The position numbers and the translations under genes were made by a program. A stretch of 64,000 nt of DNA from Lachnospiraceae bacterium (GTDB taxonomy: Bacteria; Bacillota; Clostridia; Lachnospirales; Lachnospiraceae), in NCBI GenBank assembly GCA_029219245.1, contig JAQXTA010000005.1, positions 62,001-126,000 of the forward strand. Direction: 5' to 3'. This document shows, piece by piece, positions 2,585-51,002 of this stretch. Position 1 is the stretch's first letter, and every line of letters begins with the position of its first letter. Under the pieces are notes generated by a model, which was given only the letters and a program-made list of their open reading frames with translations, had not been told where the DNA came from and ran no database searches.

Positions 2585-3748
2585 ATGAAAGAAATGGTTT
2601 TAAAAAAATTTGAAGAAATTTTCGGAGACACAGAAGGTGTTCGTGTATACTTTGCACCGGGACGTGTGAATATGATTGGAGAGCATACCGATTATAACGG
2701 CGGTCATGTATTTCCATGTGCATTGACTATCGGTACTTATGCCGCTGTTAAGAAAAGAGAAGATAAGAAGCTTCGTTTTTATTCCATGAATTTTGAGAAG
2801 CTGGGTGTCATTGAATCTACCATCGAAGGCTTGAAACCGGAGGAGGCAGCAGACTGGACCAATTATCCAAAGGGTGTTATGTGGGCTTTTGAAAAAAGAG
2901 GTTTTCAGATGACGAGCGGTCTGGATGTGGTTTTGTACGGAAATATTCCTAATGGTTCCGGACTTTCTTCTTCTGCATCGCTGGAAGTTCTGACAGGCTA
3001 TTATTTAAGAGATTTATTCGGTTTTGATGTGACAAACATCGACCTTGCTTTAATCGGACAGTATTCCGAGAATAATTTTAACGGCATGAACTGTGGTATT
3101 ATGGATCAGTTTGCTTCCGCAATGGGAAAAAAGGATAATGCCATTTTCTTAAATACGGCAGATTTATCTTATGAATATGCACCGCTTGTATTGGACGGCG
3201 CTAAAATTGTGGTTACAAACAGTAATGTAAAGCATAAATTAGTGGATTCGGAATACAACGTGAGAAGAAGCGAATGTGAAAAAGCATTGGAAGAATTACA
3301 GACGGTAGTCGGAATCAATGGACTCGGCGATTTGTCTGAGGAACAGTTTGAAACCTATAAATCAGCCATCAAGGATGATGTCAGAGTGCGCAGAGCAAAG
3401 CATGCGGTTTATGAAAATCAGAGAACCATTCGTGCGGTAGAAGCATTGAAAAAGAATGATGTGGAATTGTTCGGTAAGCTGATGAATGCTTCCCACGTAT
3501 CTCTGCGTGATGATTATCAGGTTTCCTGTGAGGAAATAGATGTGTTGGTAGAAGAAGCATGGAAAATCCCGGGAGTTATCGGTTCCCGTATTACCGGAGG
3601 CGGTTTCGGTGGCTGTACGGTCAGCATTGTAAAGGATGAAGCAGTGGAAGAATTCAAGGAGAAGGTCGGAGCTGCTTATGAGAAGCGTGTTGGCAAGAAA
3701 GCAGATTTTTATGTAGTAGAGATTGGTGACGGTCCAAGCAGATTATAG
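2585..3748 (+). CDS. galK: Galactokinase
   Basis: 387 aa, the usual length. Phosphorylates alpha-D-galactose with ATP, the first committed Leloir step, in the cytosol. The galactokinase signature GRVNMIGEHTDYNGG lies at about 27-40, the GHMP-kinase ATP loop PNGSGLSSSAS at 122-132, and the C-terminal GHMP motif ITGGGFGGCT near 340. The start is fixed by AAAGGAGA 6-13 bp upstream. galT follows after an 18-bp gap with its own AAAAGGAGA, so the two are an operon. No galE or mutarotase is in the window. Confidence 0.97.
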   Translation: MKEMVLKKFEEIFGDTEGVRVYFAPGRVNMIGEHTDYNGGHVFPCALTIGTYAAVKKREDKKLRFYSMNFEKLGVIESTIEGLKPEEAADWTNYPKGVMWAFEKRGFQMTSGLDVVLYGNIPNGSGLSSSASLEVLTGYYLRDLFGFDVTNIDLALIGQYSENNFNGMNCGIMDQFASAMGKKDNAIFLNTADLSYEYAPLVLDGAKIVVTNSNVKHKLVDSEYNVRRSECEKALEELQTVVGINGLGDLSEEQFETYKSAIKDDVRVRRAKHAVYENQRTIRAVEALKKNDVELFGKLMNASHVSLRDDYQVSCEEIDVLVEEAWKIPGVIGSRITGGGFGGCTVSIVKDEAVEEFKEKVGAAYEKRVGKKADFYVVEIGDGPSRL

Positions 3749-43898: not shown

Positions 43899-44140
43899 TT
43901 GCTATCCCTCCTTTGCTTATAAGTATAGTAATTTTGTCCGATTCGATATTATGGACTTATGTTTTAAAAAAGTCAAGAAAGATTTGGCGAATTTCATTTT
44001 TTTAGCAGTATCTTTACATATACAATAGAAATAAATGAAAAATTTTGGTAAAAAAATGCTTGACAAAACCAAATATAAACTCTACAATACATATAAATCA
44101 TACATGATTGATAGGAAAACAAGGAAAGGAGAAAAATAAG
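43899..44140. other. Divergent intergenic region
   Basis: 242 bp, A+T-rich, between the SLC13-type transporter (reverse) and the leader peptide (forward). It holds the forward promoter at 44060-44088. No further ORF or repeat was seen. Confidence 0.6.
44060..44088 (+). promoter_or_regulatory. Consensus promoter of the peptidase-transporter operon
   Basis: TTGACA (44060-44065), exactly 17 bp, TACAAT (44083-44088). Transcription would start near 44095, about 46 bp before the leader ORF. Such a strong promoter fits a locus controlled mainly after initiation. Confidence 0.8.
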
Positions 44141-44245
44141 ATGAAAGCAACAAAGAAAGGAAATTGGAAAGGGATGTGCCGCTGCTGTATGTGCAATGGG
44201 ATGCATATGGATTTATGGTTGCGGACATCTGTGGAAACTTTCTGA
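44141..44245 (+). CDS. Cysteine-rich leader peptide (proposed attenuator)
   Basis: 34 codons with ribosome site AAAGGAG nine bases before the ATG. The middle reads GMCRCCMCNGMHM: four Cys codons (13, 15, 16, 18) within six positions, plus Met codons 12, 17, 21 and 23. The stop at 44243 lies just past the segment ACATCTGT (44225-44232), which can pair with the left arm of the downstream terminator. A ribosome halted at the Cys codons would leave that segment free; one that reaches the stop would cover it. I read it as a sensor of charged tRNA-Cys. Cys-rich leader peptides of this kind are known in mycobacteria and other actinobacteria; Firmicutes usually use T-boxes. No T-box signature was seen here. 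Confidence 0.75.
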   Translation: MKATKKGNWKGMCRCCMCNGMHMDLWLRTSVETF

Positions 44246-44283
44246 CAATAAACGGATTTAATTTGGAAAGTAAGGGCAGATGT
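44225..44283 (+). promoter_or_regulatory. Antiterminator pairing of the leader
   Basis: ACATCTGT (44225-44232) can pair with GCAGATGT (44276-44283) by seven Watson-Crick pairs plus one U-G. This excludes the terminator hairpin, which uses GCAGAT (44276-44281). A weaker upstream pairing, GATGT (44173-44177) with ACATC (44225-44229), could sequester the arm in ribosome-free RNA. Confidence 0.65.
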
Positions 44284-44303
44284 TATGGATATCTGCTTTT
44301 TTT
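44276..44303 (+). terminator. Leader terminator of the proposed attenuator
   Basis: GCAGAT (44276-44281) pairs with ATCTGC (44291-44296) around a nine-base loop, followed by seven T residues. It lies between the leader ORF and the peptidase gene and would cut the transcript at about 210 nt. Confidence 0.8.
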
Positions 44304-44364
44304 GCGCCATGAAATAGAATCTGACAAAGCAGATAAAATTAGGAAAGGAAAAAGAGTAACAAAG

Positions 44365-45549
44365 ATGATACAGGGAAGAAACCAGAAAGAAATAGTGAAA
44401 AAAATAGTTTCTGGAATGCAGGAGAAAAAATATGATGCGATACTTCTGACTGCGCCGGATGCTATCTTTTATGCGACAGGGTTTGCCAGTCCGTTTCTTT
44501 ATAAGTCCGATAATACAGGACTTACGATAGCGGTTATTACTGCCGAGGGAAAGGTATATCTGATTCTGAGTGAATTTGAAAAACAGTCTGCGGGCAGAGT
44601 TACAGAAGATATCGAGCTGATTGCATATCCGACATGGATTTACATAGAAGATTATGCCAAAGCCGGACAGAAAAAGGAGGTACAACCGGATGTTAACCGA
44701 AGTTACCGGCTGGCACTCAGTGTCCTTCCGGAAAAGAAGGAAGGTTTAAAAATCGGGGTACAGCAGGACTACATAAAAATCAAAGCATGGGAATATTTAA
44801 GAGCTAATTTTAAGGAAGAACAACTTCCGGATATTACACAGTTTTTGATTCGGCTAAGAAGTGTAAAGACAGAATGGGAAATCCGCTTATTACGAGAAGC
44901 AGCCAGAATGTCGGAAATTGCAATGATAAAAACGGCCAGGGAAACAACACCGGGAATGACGGATACGGAGGTAACAGCATTGTTCAGAAGGTATTGCTTG
45001 GAACAAAGTAATGAGATTACCGGTGTAAGTCAGGCACATACCTTTGCAGATGATTTTGCTCCTGCGTGGATAACCAGTGGCAAAGTGCTGAAAAGAGGGG
45101 ACGTTATCCGTCTGGATGGGGGACCGGAATTGTCTGGATATAATTCGGATATTGCAAGAACGTTTGCGGTAGGAGGAACGACTTCTTCCGAGAATGAGAA
45201 GATATATGAAAAGCTGTGGAAAGGTTATGAAGCTGCACGAAAGACGATTGCACCCGGTGTACCGCGAAAAAAAGTATTTCAGGCAGTGCAGGAGGCGATT
45301 GCAAAAGAAGGAATTGAGAATTATATTCGTGGGCACCATGGACATTCCCTTGGATGTGCAAAATTTTCAGAGGAATATCCGTTCATTTCGCCGGATGACG
45401 AAAGACCGTTTGAACCGGGTATGGTATTTTGTATTGAAGTTCCTTATTATAGCTCCAGACATCACAGCTATAATATTGAAGACACCTTTTTAGTAACCGA
45501 AAATGGAATTGAATATTTTACCAATGCAATTCCAACTTTGTATTTATAA
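44365..45549 (+). CDS. M24 family Xaa-Pro aminopeptidase
   Basis: 394 aa from ATG 44365; the frame is open upstream to 44164, but that part is the leader and terminator. Creatinase N-terminal domain (~1-150), then the pita-bread metallopeptidase core with metal ligands in LDGGPELSGYNSDIARTF (two Asp), GHHGHSLGCAKF (His), FCIEVPYY (Glu) and YNIEDTFLV (Glu). It releases N-terminal residues ahead of proline, or cleaves dipeptides. As first gene behind the attenuator, with an amino-acid importer next, it could process imported peptides. Confidence 0.92.
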   Translation: MIQGRNQKEIVKKIVSGMQEKKYDAILLTAPDAIFYATGFASPFLYKSDNTGLTIAVITAEGKVYLILSEFEKQSAGRVTEDIELIAYPTWIYIEDYAKAGQKKEVQPDVNRSYRLALSVLPEKKEGLKIGVQQDYIKIKAWEYLRANFKEEQLPDITQFLIRLRSVKTEWEIRLLREAARMSEIAMIKTARETTPGMTDTEVTALFRRYCLEQSNEITGVSQAHTFADDFAPAWITSGKVLKRGDVIRLDGGPELSGYNSDIARTFAVGGTTSSENEKIYEKLWKGYEAARKTIAPGVPRKKVFQAVQEAIAKEGIENYIRGHHGHSLGCAKFSEEYPFISPDDERPFEPGMVFCIEVPYYSSRHHSYNIEDTFLVTENGIEYFTNAIPTLYL

Positions 45550-45573: not shown

Positions 45574-46386
45574 ATGAAGAAGAGATTATTAGCAGCATTA
45601 TTGGTAGGAACCGTTATTACAGGAGTTGTAGGATGCGGTCAGAAGGAAGAAAGTAATGTAACAAAGGTTACCATCGGAATTCGTGAGGACTTATATCCCA
45701 CATCCTTTATTGATGAAGCCGGAAATCCATCCGGTTATGATGTAGAAATTGCAAAATTGATTGATGAAGCACTGCCGGAGTATGAATTTACCTATGATGC
45801 GGTATCCCAGGAGAATTTGTTAATGGGCCTGGAAAGCGGACAATATGCAGCGGGATTTGCCGGCTATTTCTGGAATGAAGAAAGGGCAGAAAAATATTTA
45901 TTCCCGGAAGAGAATATCGGTGGAAGTATTGTTGGAATCATTACAAAAAAGGAACATTCCGATTTGACAGGTTTTGAAGATATTGTTGATCAGGGATTGA
46001 CCGTAACACCGCTTGCAGGAACAAGTGGACACTATGGGATTATCAAGGAGTACAATGAAACACATCCTGATAAACAGCTTCCGTTAGAGGTAACGGACTG
46101 GAAAACCGATGCAGAGGGCTTCCAGTGGGTATTAGATGGAAGATATGATGTCTGCATTGCTGAAAACAGCAGATTCGAAAAAATTAAAGCAGCCATTGAT
46201 GAAAATGATGAGTTAGTATTTCTTCCTGTTACAGCAATTAAAACATGGACACTGTTTAATAAGGAACAGACAGATTTACAGCAGAAATATGATACTCTTC
46301 TGAAGCAATTAAAAGAAGACGGTACATTATCATCTTTATCAGAAGAATATTTTGGTACTGATATTTTACAATATACGGAAGAGTAA
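45574..46386 (+). CDS. Amino-acid ABC transporter substrate-binding lipoprotein
   Basis: 270 aa. Lipoprotein signal (KKRLLAALLVGTVITGVVGCGQ) with lipobox Cys at ~21. SBP_bac_3 domain: TKVTIGIREDLYPTSFIDEA, NPSGYDVEIAKLIDEAL and the hinge region AGTSGHYGIIKEYN. Captures a polar amino acid outside the cell and hands it to the two permeases downstream. Cystine is a likely ligand given the Cys-rich leader and the C-S lyase genes in the operon (inference). Confidence 0.93.
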   Translation: MKKRLLAALLVGTVITGVVGCGQKEESNVTKVTIGIREDLYPTSFIDEAGNPSGYDVEIAKLIDEALPEYEFTYDAVSQENLLMGLESGQYAAGFAGYFWNEERAEKYLFPEENIGGSIVGIITKKEHSDLTGFEDIVDQGLTVTPLAGTSGHYGIIKEYNETHPDKQLPLEVTDWKTDAEGFQWVLDGRYDVCIAENSRFEKIKAAIDENDELVFLPVTAIKTWTLFNKEQTDLQQKYDTLLKQLKEDGTLSSLSEEYFGTDILQYTEE

Positions 46387-46401: not shown

Positions 46402-47127
46402 ATGCGAACATTTGATATAGCATATATCGTGAATTTAATACCGAAGTTATTGCCGTATGCACTGGTTACGCTTAGAATTGTTCTTATCAGTTTTGTACTG
46501 GGAGCATTTCTTGGCGGAGTGATAGCCATTGCCAAGCTAAGCCATCATAGATGGCTTAGCAGGATTGCATATGGATATACCAGCATGATCCGGTGTACCC
46601 CGTTTATTATCATGCTTTTCATCATTTATTATGCAATTCCGATTCTGTATGGAGTTCTGGGTGGAAGAAACCCAAATCTTTCCAAGTCGTTTTATGCGGT
46701 CATTACTTTGACAATGTATGCAGCATCCAATTTATCCGATAATTTTCGTACAGCATATACAGCGGTGGGAAAGGGACAGCGAGAGGCAGCATTGTGCTGT
46801 GGCTTAAATGAAAAACAGGCATTCATCAGAATTATTTTTCCACAGATGATGTATATTGCTCTTCCTATGATCAGCAATGTTATTATTTCGCTGATGCAGG
46901 ATACGGCACTGGTATTTGCCATTGGTTTGGTTGATTTGATGGGACAGGCCAAAGTACTGGATTCTTTGGATTATAATGTTCACACAACAGAGATATATCT
47001 TCTGGTGGCTCTCATTTTCTGGCTGCTTGCCGTTCTGGTTGAAAAACTGCTTCATGTCTATCATGATCATATTGGAAAATATACCGGTTCCGGACAGGGT
47101 AAGGTACCAACAGGAGGTAATGTATGA
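46402..47127 (+). CDS. Amino-acid ABC transporter permease (first)
   Basis: 241 aa, five TM helices. HisM/GlnP-type permease with the EAA loop YTAVGKGQREAALCCGLNEKQAF. Its stop overlaps the start of the next gene by ATGA, so the two permeases are coupled and likely form a heterodimer. Confidence 0.93.
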   Translation: MRTFDIAYIVNLIPKLLPYALVTLRIVLISFVLGAFLGGVIAIAKLSHHRWLSRIAYGYTSMIRCTPFIIMLFIIYYAIPILYGVLGGRNPNLSKSFYAVITLTMYAASNLSDNFRTAYTAVGKGQREAALCCGLNEKQAFIRIIFPQMMYIALPMISNVIISLMQDTALVFAIGLVDLMGQAKVLDSLDYNVHTTEIYLLVALIFWLLAVLVEKLLHVYHDHIGKYTGSGQGKVPTGGNV

Positions 47128-47828
47128 ATTTGGATATTTCTTTTGCAATTGACACTTTAATACAAATTATTCCCGGTATACCGGTTACTCTGGGAATGGC
47201 ATTGGGAGCATTGCTGATTGCCGTCCCGTTTGGGTTTCTGCTGGCACTTGTTCGCGTCAATCAGATCGTTATCGTAGATAAGATAGCAGCACTATACGTT
47301 TCCTTTATAAGAGGGACACCGATTGTAGTACAGATATTTCTTATTTACTCCATATTGCCGGCACTTTTAAATCAATTGGTTGAGAAAAACAACTGGCAGA
47401 TAGATGCTTATGGCGTTTCGCCGGTCATTTATGCTATTTTGATTTTCGGCTTTAACACATCTACCCATTTAAGTGAAATTTTTCGTTCTGCATTGTTATC
47501 GGTACCGAAAGGCCAGAAAGAAGCAGCATATACGGTGGGACTCAATGCATTTCAGACATATAGAAGAATTATCATTCCACAGGCATTGTCGGTTGCAGCA
47601 CCCAGTATGTGTACTGCCAGCATGAATATGTTAAAGAATACTTCTTTGGCATATATGATGTCGGTTATGGATATTACCGGACGCGCCAAGGCACTTGCAG
47701 GGGTAGGTTATCAATATCTGGAAGCGTATCTGGATATTTTTATTATGTATCTGGTTCTGTGTCTGTGCATCGAAAAGCTGTTTCAGGCATGGGAAAAGAA
47801 ACTTCTGCGTTATAAAGTAAGTGCATAA
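47124..47828 (+). CDS. Amino-acid ABC transporter permease (second)
   Basis: 234 aa. Opens with [25 protein letters not shown], has [15 protein letters not shown] and the EAA loop [25 protein letters not shown]. Partner of the permease at 46402. The coupled ATGA overlap supports equal synthesis. Confidence 0.93.
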
Positions 47829-47854: not shown

Positions 47855-48607
47855 ATGATAACAATCAATAATGTAAAGAAAGCTTTTCAGGGCAATGAAG
47901 TTTTGAAAGGTATTTCCCTGACAATCGAAAAAAATGATGTAGTAGCCATTCTTGGTCCAAGCGGTTCCGGCAAAACCACTTTCCTGCGTTGCATTAATTT
48001 TTTGGAAAAAGCAGATCATGGGACAATTACTTTTGACGGAGTGGAAACGGATTTAAATAAGGCAAGTAAGAAGGAAATCAATTCGATTCGAAAAAAAACA
48101 GCATTTGTTTTTCAGAATTATAATCTTTTTCAAAATAAAACAGCATTGGAAAATGTGACAGAAGGGTTGATTGTTGCAAGAAAGGTGCCGAAAGCAGAAG
48201 CGGAAAAAATAGGAAAAGAAGCATTGGATAAGGTTGGATTATCAGAAAAGTATGATTTTTATCCATCTCAGTTATCGGGCGGTCAGCAGCAGCGGGTAGG
48301 AATTGCACGCGCTTTTGCGGTTAATCCGGAAGTCATTCTTTTTGACGAACCGACTTCCGCATTGGACCCCGAGTTGATTGGAGAGGTGCTGGGAGTTATG
48401 AAAAATCTTGCAAAAGAAGGAACTACGATGGTAGTAGTCACCCACGAAATGTCCTTTGCAAGAGAAGCGGCAACTAAAGTGGTTTTCATGGCAGATGGTA
48501 ATATTGTGGAGCAGGGAACATCCCGAGAATTTTTCACACATCCAAAGGAGGAGCGTACCCGTCAGTTTTTGCGGAGATATTTGAACGATTATGACTATCT
48601 TATTTAG
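47855..48607 (+). CDS. Amino-acid ABC transporter ATPase
   Basis: 250 aa. Walker [20 protein letters not shown]-loop [21 protein letters not shown], signature [15 protein letters not shown], Walker [15 protein letters not shown] and H-loop [13 protein letters not shown]. Polar-amino-acid (GlnQ/TcyC) type. It completes the importer made by the three preceding genes. Confidence 0.95.
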
Positions 48608-48660: not shown

Positions 48661-49809
48661 ATGAGTTACGGAGTAGACACAGTTTGTATTCATGGAAATG
48701 GAAAAAGAAAGAATGTAGATAATACCGGAAGTATCAGTTTCCCGATTTATCAGACGGCGGCTTATGCACATCCCGGCGTAGGACAAAGCACAGGGTATGA
48801 CTATTCCAGAGTGCAGAATCCGACCAGAGAAGAAGTAGAACGGATTATGGCAGACTTGGAGCATGGAACCGATGCGATTGCTTTTACTTGCGGCATGGCA
48901 GCGGTCAGTGCATTTATGGAGCTCCTTCGGCCCGGTGACCATATTGTGGCAACGGATGATTTATACGGAGGAACGATTCGGCAATTTCGTTTAATCAATG
49001 AAAAAAACGGTATCCAGGTATCTTATGTGGATACTTCGGACTTAGAGCAGATCAAAGCCGCATTACAGGAAAATACGAAACTTATTTATGTGGAAACACC
49101 AACCAATCCGATGATGCAGGTAACGGATATTGCCGCAGTCAGCCAGATTGCCCAAGAAAAAGGCTGCTTGTTAGCAGTGGATAACACATTCCTGACACCC
49201 TATTTCCAGAATCCGTTGGATTTGGGTGCAGATGTGGTCATTCATAGTGCAACCAAATATCTGGAAGGCCATAATGATACGTTAGGCGGTTTTCTTGTGA
49301 CAAAAAGACAGGATCTTTCCGACGGAATCCGGGAAATTATCAAAACCACCGGTGGAGGACTGGCATCCTTTGACAGCTGGCTGATTCTCAGAGGAATCAA
49401 GACATTGCCGGTGCGTATGGAGAAACATCAGCAGAATGCGATGGCCATTGCAAAATGGTTGCAGAAGCATCCTAAGGTACAGGATGTACGCTACATAGGG
49501 CTGGACAGCCATCCCGGATATGAAATCATCAGAAAGCAGAGCAGAGGCTTTGGAGGAATGCTCACTTTCCGCGTAGATTCTAAAGAAACGGTATATAAGA
49601 TTCTGGAAAATGTGAAAGTAGCGCAGTTTGCGGAGAGTCTTGGCGGAACTGAGAGCTTAATTACTTATCCGATGACACAGACCCATGCGGATGTACCGGA
49701 AGAAAAACGGAAAGCAAAAGGAATCGATGAGACACTGCTTCGTATGTCTGTCGGCATTGAAGATGTCAATGACCTGATTGCAGACTTGGAACAGGCGATG
49801 AATCGTTGA
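48661..49809 (+). CDS. PLP-dependent trans-sulfuration enzyme (cystathionine synthase/lyase family)
   Basis: 382 aa. Cys/Met metabolism PLP family: SFPIYQTAAYAHPG, YDYSRVQNPTREEVE, TCGMAAVSAFMELL, PLP Lys at about residue 199 in VIHSATKYLEGHNDTLGG, and C-terminal GGTESLITYPMTQTHADVP. The sequence alone does not separate gamma-synthase, gamma-lyase and beta-lyase activity. It is 53 bp behind the ABC ATPase, where a TATAAT at 48619 could give a secondary start. It fits sulfur amino-acid conversion. Confidence 0.9.
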   Translation: MSYGVDTVCIHGNGKRKNVDNTGSISFPIYQTAAYAHPGVGQSTGYDYSRVQNPTREEVERIMADLEHGTDAIAFTCGMAAVSAFMELLRPGDHIVATDDLYGGTIRQFRLINEKNGIQVSYVDTSDLEQIKAALQENTKLIYVETPTNPMMQVTDIAAVSQIAQEKGCLLAVDNTFLTPYFQNPLDLGADVVIHSATKYLEGHNDTLGGFLVTKRQDLSDGIREIIKTTGGGLASFDSWLILRGIKTLPVRMEKHQQNAMAIAKWLQKHPKVQDVRYIGLDSHPGYEIIRKQSRGFGGMLTFRVDSKETVYKILENVKVAQFAESLGGTESLITYPMTQTHADVPEEKRKAKGIDETLLRMSVGIEDVNDLIADLEQAMNR

Positions 49810-49820
49810 TGGAGGAGAAT

Positions 49821-51002
49821 ATGCCATATAATTTTGATGAAATAATCGACAGAAAAAATTCGGACTGTCTGAAATATGATTTTACGGTTGAGAGAGGGAA
49901 ACCGGAAGATGTTTTGCCCCTCTGGGTAGCAGATATGGACTTTCGAACAGCACCCTGCATTACTGAGCGCATGAAGAAAGATGTGGAGCTTGGTATTTTC
50001 GGTTATACCAATCATAAAGACCGTTATTTTCAGGCGGTTGCAAACTGGTATCAGGCATATTTTGACTGGACGGTACAGAAAGACTGGCTTTTGAAAACAC
50101 CGGGTGTGGTATTCGCGATAGCTATGGCAATTCAGGCATTGACCAAAGAGGGTGAAGGCGTATTGATCCAACAGCCTGTTTATTATCCGTTTGCGGCAGT
50201 GATAAGGGATAATAACCGAAAACTGGTGAATAGTCCGCTTGTGTTAAAAGATGGTCGTTATGAGATGGATTTTGAAGACCTGGAGATTAAGATAAAAAAC
50301 GAAAATGTAAAGCTATTCCTGCTTTGCAGTCCGCACAATCCGGTAGGGAGAGTCTGGACGAAAGAAGAATTGGTAAGGGTCGGAGAGCTTTGCCTGAAGT
50401 ATGATGTGAAAATTGTCAGCGATGAAATTCACAGTGATTTCGTTTATCCGGGATATAAGCACTCAATATTTTCTACCGTTGATGAAAGATTTAAGGATAT
50501 CAGCATTATTTGTACCGCGCCGAGTAAGACTTTTAATCTGGCAGGCTTACAGGTGTCCAACATTTTTATCCCGAATCCGGTCATACGCAAAGCATTTCAG
50601 AAACGCCTGAATGCAGTAGGATACTGTGAACCGAATATGCTGGGAATGCATGCATGTCAGGCAGCTTATGAAGGCGGCAGAGAATGGCTGGAAGAATTGA
50701 AGGTATATTTAAAGGAGAATCTGGATTTTGCACGAGATTTTCTGGAGAAAAGAATTCCACAAATCAAGCTGATTGAGCCGGAAGGAACTTATTTAATCTG
50801 GCTGGACTGTCGCGCACTTGGCCTATCGGAAGCGGAATTGGAGAATTTAATTGTCCAGAAAGCAAAGTTGTGGCTGGATGCCGGAAAAATGTTTGGAGCC
50901 ACAGGTGCCGGTTTTGAACGAATCAATTTGACCTGTCCGAGAAGTGTATTGCAGGAAGCACTGGAGCGGTTGGAAAAAGCGGTGGCGGCATTGACAGCGT
51001 AA
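49821..51002 (+). CDS. MalY/PatB-type C-S lyase (cysteine-S-conjugate beta-lyase/aminotransferase)
   Basis: 393 aa from ATG 49821, with GGAGG five bases upstream; in-frame TTG/ATG starts at 49806 and 49809 overlap the previous stop. Fold-type I PLP enzyme; PLP Lys at about 236 in CTAPSKTFNLAGLQVSN. Opens with FDEIIDRKNSDCLKYDF, has LPLWVADMDFRTAP and SPHNPVGRVWTKEEL. Cleaves cystathionine or cysteine to pyruvate, ammonia and thiol, which links it to the trans-sulfuration gene and the proposed cyst(e)ine control. Confidence 0.9.
   Translation: MPYNFDEIIDRKNSDCLKYDFTVERGKPEDVLPLWVADMDFRTAPCITERMKKDVELGIFGYTNHKDRYFQAVANWYQAYFDWTVQKDWLLKTPGVVFAIAMAIQALTKEGEGVLIQQPVYYPFAAVIRDNNRKLVNSPLVLKDGRYEMDFEDLEIKIKNENVKLFLLCSPHNPVGRVWTKEELVRVGELCLKYDVKIVSDEIHSDFVYPGYKHSIFSTVDERFKDISIICTAPSKTFNLAGLQVSNIFIPNPVIRKAFQKRLNAVGYCEPNMLGMHACQAAYEGGREWLEELKVYLKENLDFARDFLEKRIPQIKLIEPEGTYLIWLDCRALGLSEAELENLIVQKAKLWLDAGKMFGATGAGFERINLTCPRSVLQEALERLEKAVAALTA

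Follow-up and report, generated by a model that had tools for sequence, protein, structure and literature searches.

The short, cysteine-rich open reading frame (ORF) at 44141-44245 is very probably the leader peptide of a ribosome-mediated transcription attenuator of the trp/his type in which the control codons specify cysteine. The switch would probably shut off, when cysteine is plentiful, an operon that appears to handle sulfur amino acids. The parts of the switch and the complementarity between them can be read from the window, comparable leaders recur before sulfur genes, and a second type of leader carries compensatory changes in its antiterminator. Here the window is the whole stretch of 64,000 nucleotides that we analysed (G000:C5:62001-126000), whose nearest named relative is a Lachnospiraceae MAG. 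More broadly, and with only moderate confidence, we propose that the Lachnospirales run their sulfur amino-acid regulon (cystine- and methionine-type importers, O-acetylhomoserine sulfhydrylase, cysteine-synthase-like genes and C-S lyase operons) by leader-peptide attenuators of at least two architectures, where T-boxes and SAM riboswitches would be expected. In the common architecture a C-R-M-x-x-S-(R/Q)-A stretch would double as the antiterminator arm, and the codons would follow the gene, being Cys-rich before cystine-type importers and Met-rich before MetN-like genes.

The leader of the window and its downstream operon

The features of the leader and of the genes behind it are as follows.

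44060-44088, + strand: promoter TTGACA-17-TACAAT (11 of 12 consensus matches; placed relative to the leader as in relatives)
44098-44117, + strand: operator-like box TCATA-N9-TAGGAA (pattern match)
44125-44131, + strand: ribosome-binding site AAAGGAG (sequence)
44141-44245, + strand: leader ORF of 34 codons, stop TGA at 44243 (sequence, chance test, relatives)
44170-44232, + strand: predicted 1:2 hairpin of the Cys-codon region and the antiterminator arm (minimum-energy fold)
44177-44194, + strand: putative control codons Cys13, Cys15, Cys16 and Cys18, part of segment 1 (sequence, fold)
44224-44232, + strand: predicted segment 2, the 5' antiterminator arm (folding; duplex -12.6 kcal/mol, shuffle p 0.024)
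44276-44284, + strand: predicted segment 3, the 3' antiterminator arm and left arm of the terminator (folding)
44276-44303, + strand: intrinsic terminator, stem 44276-44296 plus seven T (sequence, folding)
44365-45549, + strand: M24 peptidase with a Creatinase_N domain (family scan)
45574-46386, + strand: amino-acid binding protein, SBP_bac_3 (cystine model second best, below cut-off)
46402-47127, + strand: permease (best NCBIfam model a cystine permease, below cut-off)
47124-47828, + strand: second permease (ORF; homologs by tblastn)
47855-48607, + strand: ABC ATPase, TcyN-like (cystine TcyN 334 bits, cut-off 406)
48661-49809, + strand: Cys/Met metabolism PLP enzyme of the trans-sulfuration type (best model 477 bits, cut-off 594)
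49806-51002, + strand: PatB-family C-S lyase (TIGR04350 480 bits, cut-off 340)

The promoter, the ribosome site, the 34-codon ORF with its CRCCMC cluster and the GCAGAT/ATCTGC terminator followed by seven T are all in the sequence, as the original prediction had it. The encoded peptide, 34 aa before the TGA, is MKATKKGNWKGMCRCCMCNGMHMDLWLRTSVETF; the ORF starts about 46 nt past the inferred transcription start and its Cys codons begin at 44177, 44183, 44186 and 44192. The stem of the terminator is GCAGATGTTATGGATATCTGC, with the T run at 44297-44303. A simple terminator scan did not list this terminator, we think because its stem rule extends via G-T pairs into the T run. Near the end of the ORF, ACATCTGT at 44225-44232 is complementary to the left arm of the terminator, and the predicted pairing of this stretch with 44276-44283 held up on folding and in the shuffle test.

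We rejected a chance origin of the ORF because of its rarity. At least four Cys in six codons were found in one of the 89 ORFs of 12-60 aa that have a ribosome site on either strand of the 64 kb, and in one of 1097 when no ribosome site was required, this one being the window leader both times. Dinucleotide shuffles of 44095-44303 never produced such an ORF (0/3000), and the detector counts in control windows, given below, agree. The frame of the peptidase stays open through the terminator and the leader, back to a TTG at 44164 (44164-45549), and automated gene calling may therefore annotate the leader as part of the peptidase.

Family scans of the downstream genes fit the role in sulfur amino acids proposed for them, and the importer is probably of the cystine type, its models scoring below their cut-offs. 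The PLP enzyme and the C-S lyase (the cgs-malY pair) were found behind their promoter without the peptidase and importer block in 19 other genomes of the genus, a subset of the 28 with an ortholog above 72% identity. No comparable Cys leader precedes the pair in those 19, L091 having only a 15-codon ORF with KCNC. Among 77 genus genomes the binding protein has a close homolog in G320 only (90%); the peptidase there is 86% identical to that of the window, and the whole block is common to both. The G320 operon sits elsewhere, not beside the neighbouring transporter gene, and its contig stops inside a group II intron, within the 3' portion (RF00029, 44.7 bits; L031 59-140), the match ending 67 nt before the peptidase; its leader therefore cannot be judged. 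Some group II introns insert behind terminators. We also considered the M24 peptidase as a unit that travels with the leader and rejected it: gene context was compared for the orthologs at L002, L003 and L031-L039, and the scan upstream of L031-L039 found no Cys leader.

In the mechanism that we propose, transcription would begin near 44095 and a ribosome would trail the polymerase along the leader ORF. If Cys-tRNA were scarce, the ribosome would stall at Cys13-Cys18 and leave 44224-44232 free; this stretch would pair with 44276-44284 ahead of the synthesis of the right terminator arm, and the polymerase would read through into the operon. With ample cysteine, a ribosome at the stop codon (44243) would cover part of 44224-44232 and the terminator would form; without translation, the 1:2 hairpin would likewise favour termination. 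The operator-like box at the promoter would probably provide a first layer of control.

The leader RNA is more stable than its shuffles (z -2.54; 1/200 as good), and its fold adds a pairing to those first described, that of the Cys-codon region with the antiterminator arm (44170-44232), so that all four segments of a trp-like leader are present. The stall geometry came out as described: a ribosome at Cys18 would have its edge near 44206, leaving segment 2 free, and one at the stop would cover part of it, with a footprint that we take to be about 44228-44257. When a ribosome was modelled at a Cys codon, folding predicted the 2:3 pairing for the transcript that is just short of a full right terminator arm. 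Forcing the antiterminator in the full-length RNA costs 1.1 kcal/mol relative to the best fold (-21.7 against -22.8 kcal/mol). The original prediction had proposed folding of the RNA as a check. The predicted probability of the terminator is 1.00 with the ribosome at the stop, but still 0.75-0.91 with stalls at the four Cys codons and 0.82 with no ribosome (0.95 and 1.00 with other RNA ends), so that equilibrium folding of the stalled state gives no clean switch. The E. coli trp leader behaved in the same way under the same protocol, its terminator staying at 0.99-1.00 when stalled and the antiterminator appearing only in a shorter transcript; since trpL shows no larger drop, the equilibrium stall test does not discriminate. 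A ribosome at the stop gave terminator probabilities of 0.96-1.00 in seven of the eight leaders folded, the eighth being L156, which is not judgeable in this way because its left arm overlaps the stop. The single-duplex shuffle test was significant for the window (0.024), for none of seven other leaders of the same type (type A, below; L145 was scored on the wrong hairpin) and for 10 of 14 leaders of the second type.

That the leader is a riboswitch (T-box, SAM or other) with an ORF in it by coincidence is hardly credible. T-boxes are common in the window genome, where 13 matches, five of them over the Rfam cut-off, indicate that they are used elsewhere in it. However, no Rfam family reaches its gathering score in the window and none appears at E up to 1 in 43900-44400, and at the 37 loci of relatives that were scanned (L196 and L217 are the same locus) the only matches are tRNAs. 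On these covariance-model scores we rejected a T-box, a SAM riboswitch or any other Rfam family at the leader.

Related leaders within the genus

As DNA, the window leader was not found in any second genome: a search with 44085-44364 returned weak matches only, in 77/77 genus genomes at E up to 10. One of these, in G343 (E 2.6e-4, fifth among the other genomes), covers just the stretch 5' of the ORF, and beyond it G343 has a Cys-rich ORF plus a terminator. The original prediction had suggested looking in related Lachnospiraceae for a Cys-rich ORF followed by a terminator, and this search was productive. Homologs of the binding protein at E 1e-20 occur in 18 of the 77 genomes; in seven of the 16 examined (the window and G320 were left out), namely G346, G302, G329, G357, G303, G343 and G318, a Cys-rich leader with a ribosome site and a terminator precedes the importer operon. 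We call these leaders, together with that of the window, type A; a typical peptide is MRQTGTMVATMMCMGRGMCMCCCCMSC.

Several other members of the genus hold partial or different versions. The leader of G301 lies on another contig, and behind it comes the methyltransferase-like gene that also follows the leader in G343, G302, G329 and G357 (URO-D in Pfam, for the G357 copy). In G356 the promoter and the box persist and the leader start MRQTGT runs in frame into the methyltransferase-like gene (L152, about 3679-3705), but this remnant has no Cys run and no terminator; it is either a natural loss or an assembly artefact. Contig ends truncate the importer loci of G299 and G350, and no Cys-rich leader lies upstream of the importer homologs in G364, G369 and G323. 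G313 and G337 carry a different Cys-rich ORF (KCCCCQTVC) whose stop is inside the terminator stem. These ORFs (L156 3392-3529, L157 3506-3643) lie upstream of a gene for 412 aa, with a weak match to the C-terminal domain of glutathione S-transferase, and of an amino-acid importer.

At E below 1e-6 a profile of the seven leader peptides recovered eight of the 77 genomes, all but one being training rows, and it missed G318. A weak match in G320 (E 0.135) was rejected, as it lies inside a membrane-protein-like frame. Outside the genus (397 family genomes) the matches were weak, the best at E 5.2e-4, and among the loci scanned there (L160-L216) one, in G023 (E 0.028), proved to hold a leader of a second type. 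The type A peptides, that of the window included, do not contain CRM and have hardly anything in common except Cys, Met and basic residues, Cys being the invariant residue in the aligned leader clusters. Since segment 2 does not align, the type A arms were compared by eye only: those of the window (ACATCTG, CAGATGT, ATCTG) differ together from the matched arms of five relatives, for example AAGTCTG, CAGGCTT and GCCTG.

The promoters share a further element. Just past the -10 lies the pattern TCATA/TCCTA-N9-TAGGAA, always 20 nt where present in leaders, which was found in 10/10 type A-like promoters (the window, L126, L145, L146, L148, L151, L152, L153, L158 and L167, one of them the G356 remnant) and in 14/19 cgs promoters without a leader (L073-L091); its background frequency is 0.022 per 200 nt, for a pattern chosen after looking. 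By its look the box could be the target of a cysteine repressor, and it may resemble CymR boxes. As it is common to the window promoter and its relatives, attenuation is probably a second layer of control. Regulation by a repressor alone, with leader and terminator as mere remnants, would accommodate both the frequency of the box and the G356 locus, where promoter and box persist without the Cys run or the terminator. This reading is nevertheless highly improbable given the number of loci at which Cys leaders with terminators occur and the compensatory changes in the second type.

A second leader type across the order

In G023, which belongs to another genus, the leader contains MCMCCCRMQFSQA and a terminator comes after it; 10 bases of the terminator's left arm are complementary to TCTCCCAGGCA within the ORF. 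The gene downstream encodes a family-3 binding protein with a fused NlpA/MetQ domain. With this protein as anchor, a leader and terminator were found at 14 of 30 importer loci (at least two Cys in eight codons). A stricter detector (at least three Cys in eight) matched 11 of 70 windows upstream of importers, 0/70 on the opposite strand and 0/234 tiled control windows from 27 peptidase loci. All 11 matches fell within the 30 best importer loci and none within the 40 more distant windows.

A profile of the 14 peptides of this second type (type B) matched 43 of the 392 genomes of the order at E 0.1. Thirty of the loci from this search were inspected, by eye and script, giving 20 leaders (two of them already known), one doubtful case (L303) and nine that were not leaders. 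By genus codes, the second type spans 24 other genera in three families. The genes behind these leaders include O-acetylhomoserine sulfhydrylase (L293, L295 and L299 over the cut-off, L297 below it), a cysteine-synthase or cystathionine-synthase-like start (L298), MetN-like ATPases below the cut-off of a longer model (L304, L315), a MetQ-like gene (L291), a PepT-like peptidase over its cut-off (L289) and, elsewhere, binding proteins. The recurrence of Cys leaders with terminators before importers and sulfur genes, together with the covariation of the second type described below, supports the cysteine attenuator first proposed for the window. At the doubtful locus, inspection by eye of L303 1490-2300 found a Cys-rich ORF (NCCCMCMCKM), then a tRNA gene, a small ORF and an S-adenosylmethionine-synthetase-like gene.

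Sensing of Met had been left open at the outset, and the same attenuator might respond to both Cys-tRNA and Met-tRNA, or mainly to methionine. Met makes up 112 and Cys 130 of the 851 residues after the first in 22 leaders. When the detector was run for other residues over the 70 importer windows, Met-rich ORFs numbered 10, close to the 11 Cys-rich ones (Ala 4, Ser 3, the rest at most 2). Moreover, the leaders before the two MetN-like genes at L304 and L315, both from one genus (g153), are Met-rich (MMYMCMRRM and MTMMYMCMFRM), and the codon make-up of a leader may follow the gene that it controls. The tight run is nonetheless of Cys in the window and in most type A leaders, Cys is the invariant residue in the aligned clusters, and the PLP enzyme is the only gene of the window operon with a link to methionine. 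We consider joint or methionine sensing the less likely reading, but one to be kept in mind.

The antiterminator of the second type was examined in an alignment of 24 leaders that had been selected on the peptide, without regard to whether they complement the downstream arm. Left out of it were L225 and L228 (no CRM motif), L229 and L296 (trimmed before the right arm), L289, L290, L309 and L315 (terminator unresolved by the script), L303, and the repeats L288 (= L228) and L292 (= L230). In the 24 rows 97.1% of the antiterminator is paired, falling to 18-57% when the arms are slid by one to three columns, and 11 cells carry a double change against a shuffle mean of 2.5 (0/500 shuffles). One pair is GC in 18 leaders and AU in six, another GC in 19, AU in three and GU in two. 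The number of pairs with a double change is three, which 82/500 shuffles reach. The 14 leaders gave a similar picture, with 87.7% of cells paired, 11 double-change cells against a shuffle mean of 4.8 (1/500) and an unexceptional five pairs with a double change (56/500). The terminator stem, 88.8% paired in these 14, covaries more weakly than the antiterminator. L228 has a wholly different 2:3 pair, of -21.0 kcal/mol.

In the peptides of the second type, C-R-M-x-x-S-(R/Q)-A is steadier than the number of Cys, some leaders having a single Cys in a CRM cluster. CGAATG, the Arg-Met codons after Cys, is conserved as nucleotides beyond what the peptide needs (alignment columns 1-13). An arrest peptide, in which the nascent chain would stall the ribosome on a metabolite or redox state and the peptide would matter more than the codons, could draw on this steady motif, the conservation of CGAATG as nucleotides included. 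We regard it as unlikely: the constancy of S-(R/Q)-A is accounted for by the pairing arm TCC-CRG-GC, which encodes it, and the type A peptides have neither CRM nor much else in common. Even less room is left for a small Cys-rich protein, such as a metal or thiol chaperone, with its own terminator, behind which the operon would be expressed by leftover read-through and no regulation would be coupled to translation. The good ribosome site does make translation possible, but column identity averages only 43% in seven type A peptides and 38% in the 14 of the second type and is poor outside the Cys cluster, as against a conserved antiterminator pairing. Among the leader peptides scanned, 0/10 matched an NCBIfam model and 0/8 a Pfam model over its cut-off (two chance matches had E 0.06 and 0.2), and we consider such a protein very unlikely. 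As the leaders tested match no curated model, annotation overlooks them.

Ribosome-mediated attenuation, our preferred reading, would work somewhat differently in the second type. Its segment 2 is found 35-55 nt upstream of the stop, and the RNA without a ribosome favours antitermination in seven of the 10 leaders folded; it would thus have to be the passage of the ribosome, not its rest at the stop, that favours termination.

Comparison with known systems

Leader-peptide attenuation is textbook knowledge for enterobacteria, and in Firmicutes T-boxes and riboswitches are thought to do such regulation. Polycysteine leaderless ORFs of mycobacteria were reportedly described by Canestrari in 2020. 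As far as the accessible portion of a further source goes, such mycobacterial ORFs act by translation attenuation (PMC13236596); they are leaderless and not known to carry a terminator, whereas the window leader has a ribosome site and a terminator. In Actinobacteria, the part of the report available to us describes short ORFs upstream of cys genes that contain runs of Cys codons, without a conserved terminator (PMC1262725). A further close case is uORFC-8-2 before cysS in Rhodobacterales, which in the available part of its source has tandem Cys codons, a U run consistent with an intrinsic terminator and a predicted attenuation (PMC8632094). It differs in belonging to Alphaproteobacteria, in preceding cysS only and in having two Cys codons; downstream of the window leader are a peptidase, an importer and PLP enzymes, and its relatives are in Lachnospiraceae. 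Attenuators with a His leader, a terminator and an antiterminator are described for Firmicutes (PMC2965389, PMC9413887); the control residue there is histidine, and the accessible text of these two sources describes no cysteine case. A literature search, most subscription papers lying outside its scope, gave no cysteine leader in Firmicutes among the matches listed.

If our reading is true, a gut-abundant order reads its supply of sulfur amino acids through the translating ribosome. The control of cystine uptake and of C-S lyase activity in gut Lachnospiraceae could be tested through the leaders, which would also serve as a natural data set for the origin, diversification and changing specificity of leader attenuators.

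The nearest likeness is to E. coli trpL and the trp and his attenuators, with their ORF of clustered control codons, their 1:2, 2:3 and 3:4 pairings and their intrinsic terminator. In the window, an ORF with a ribosome site and clustered Cys codons is likewise followed by an intrinsic terminator before the first gene, the predicted antiterminator shares an arm with the terminator and would be exposed by a stall at the control codons, and the control residue matches the downstream pathway, the substrate of the importer being predicted. In contrast to the enterobacterial systems, the control residue here would be Cys, the host belongs to the Firmicutes, the operons are sulfur operons with an operator-like box in front, and the pairing arm of the second type lies well before the stop codon. 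The mechanism is a known one; the signal, the genes and the taxon look new.
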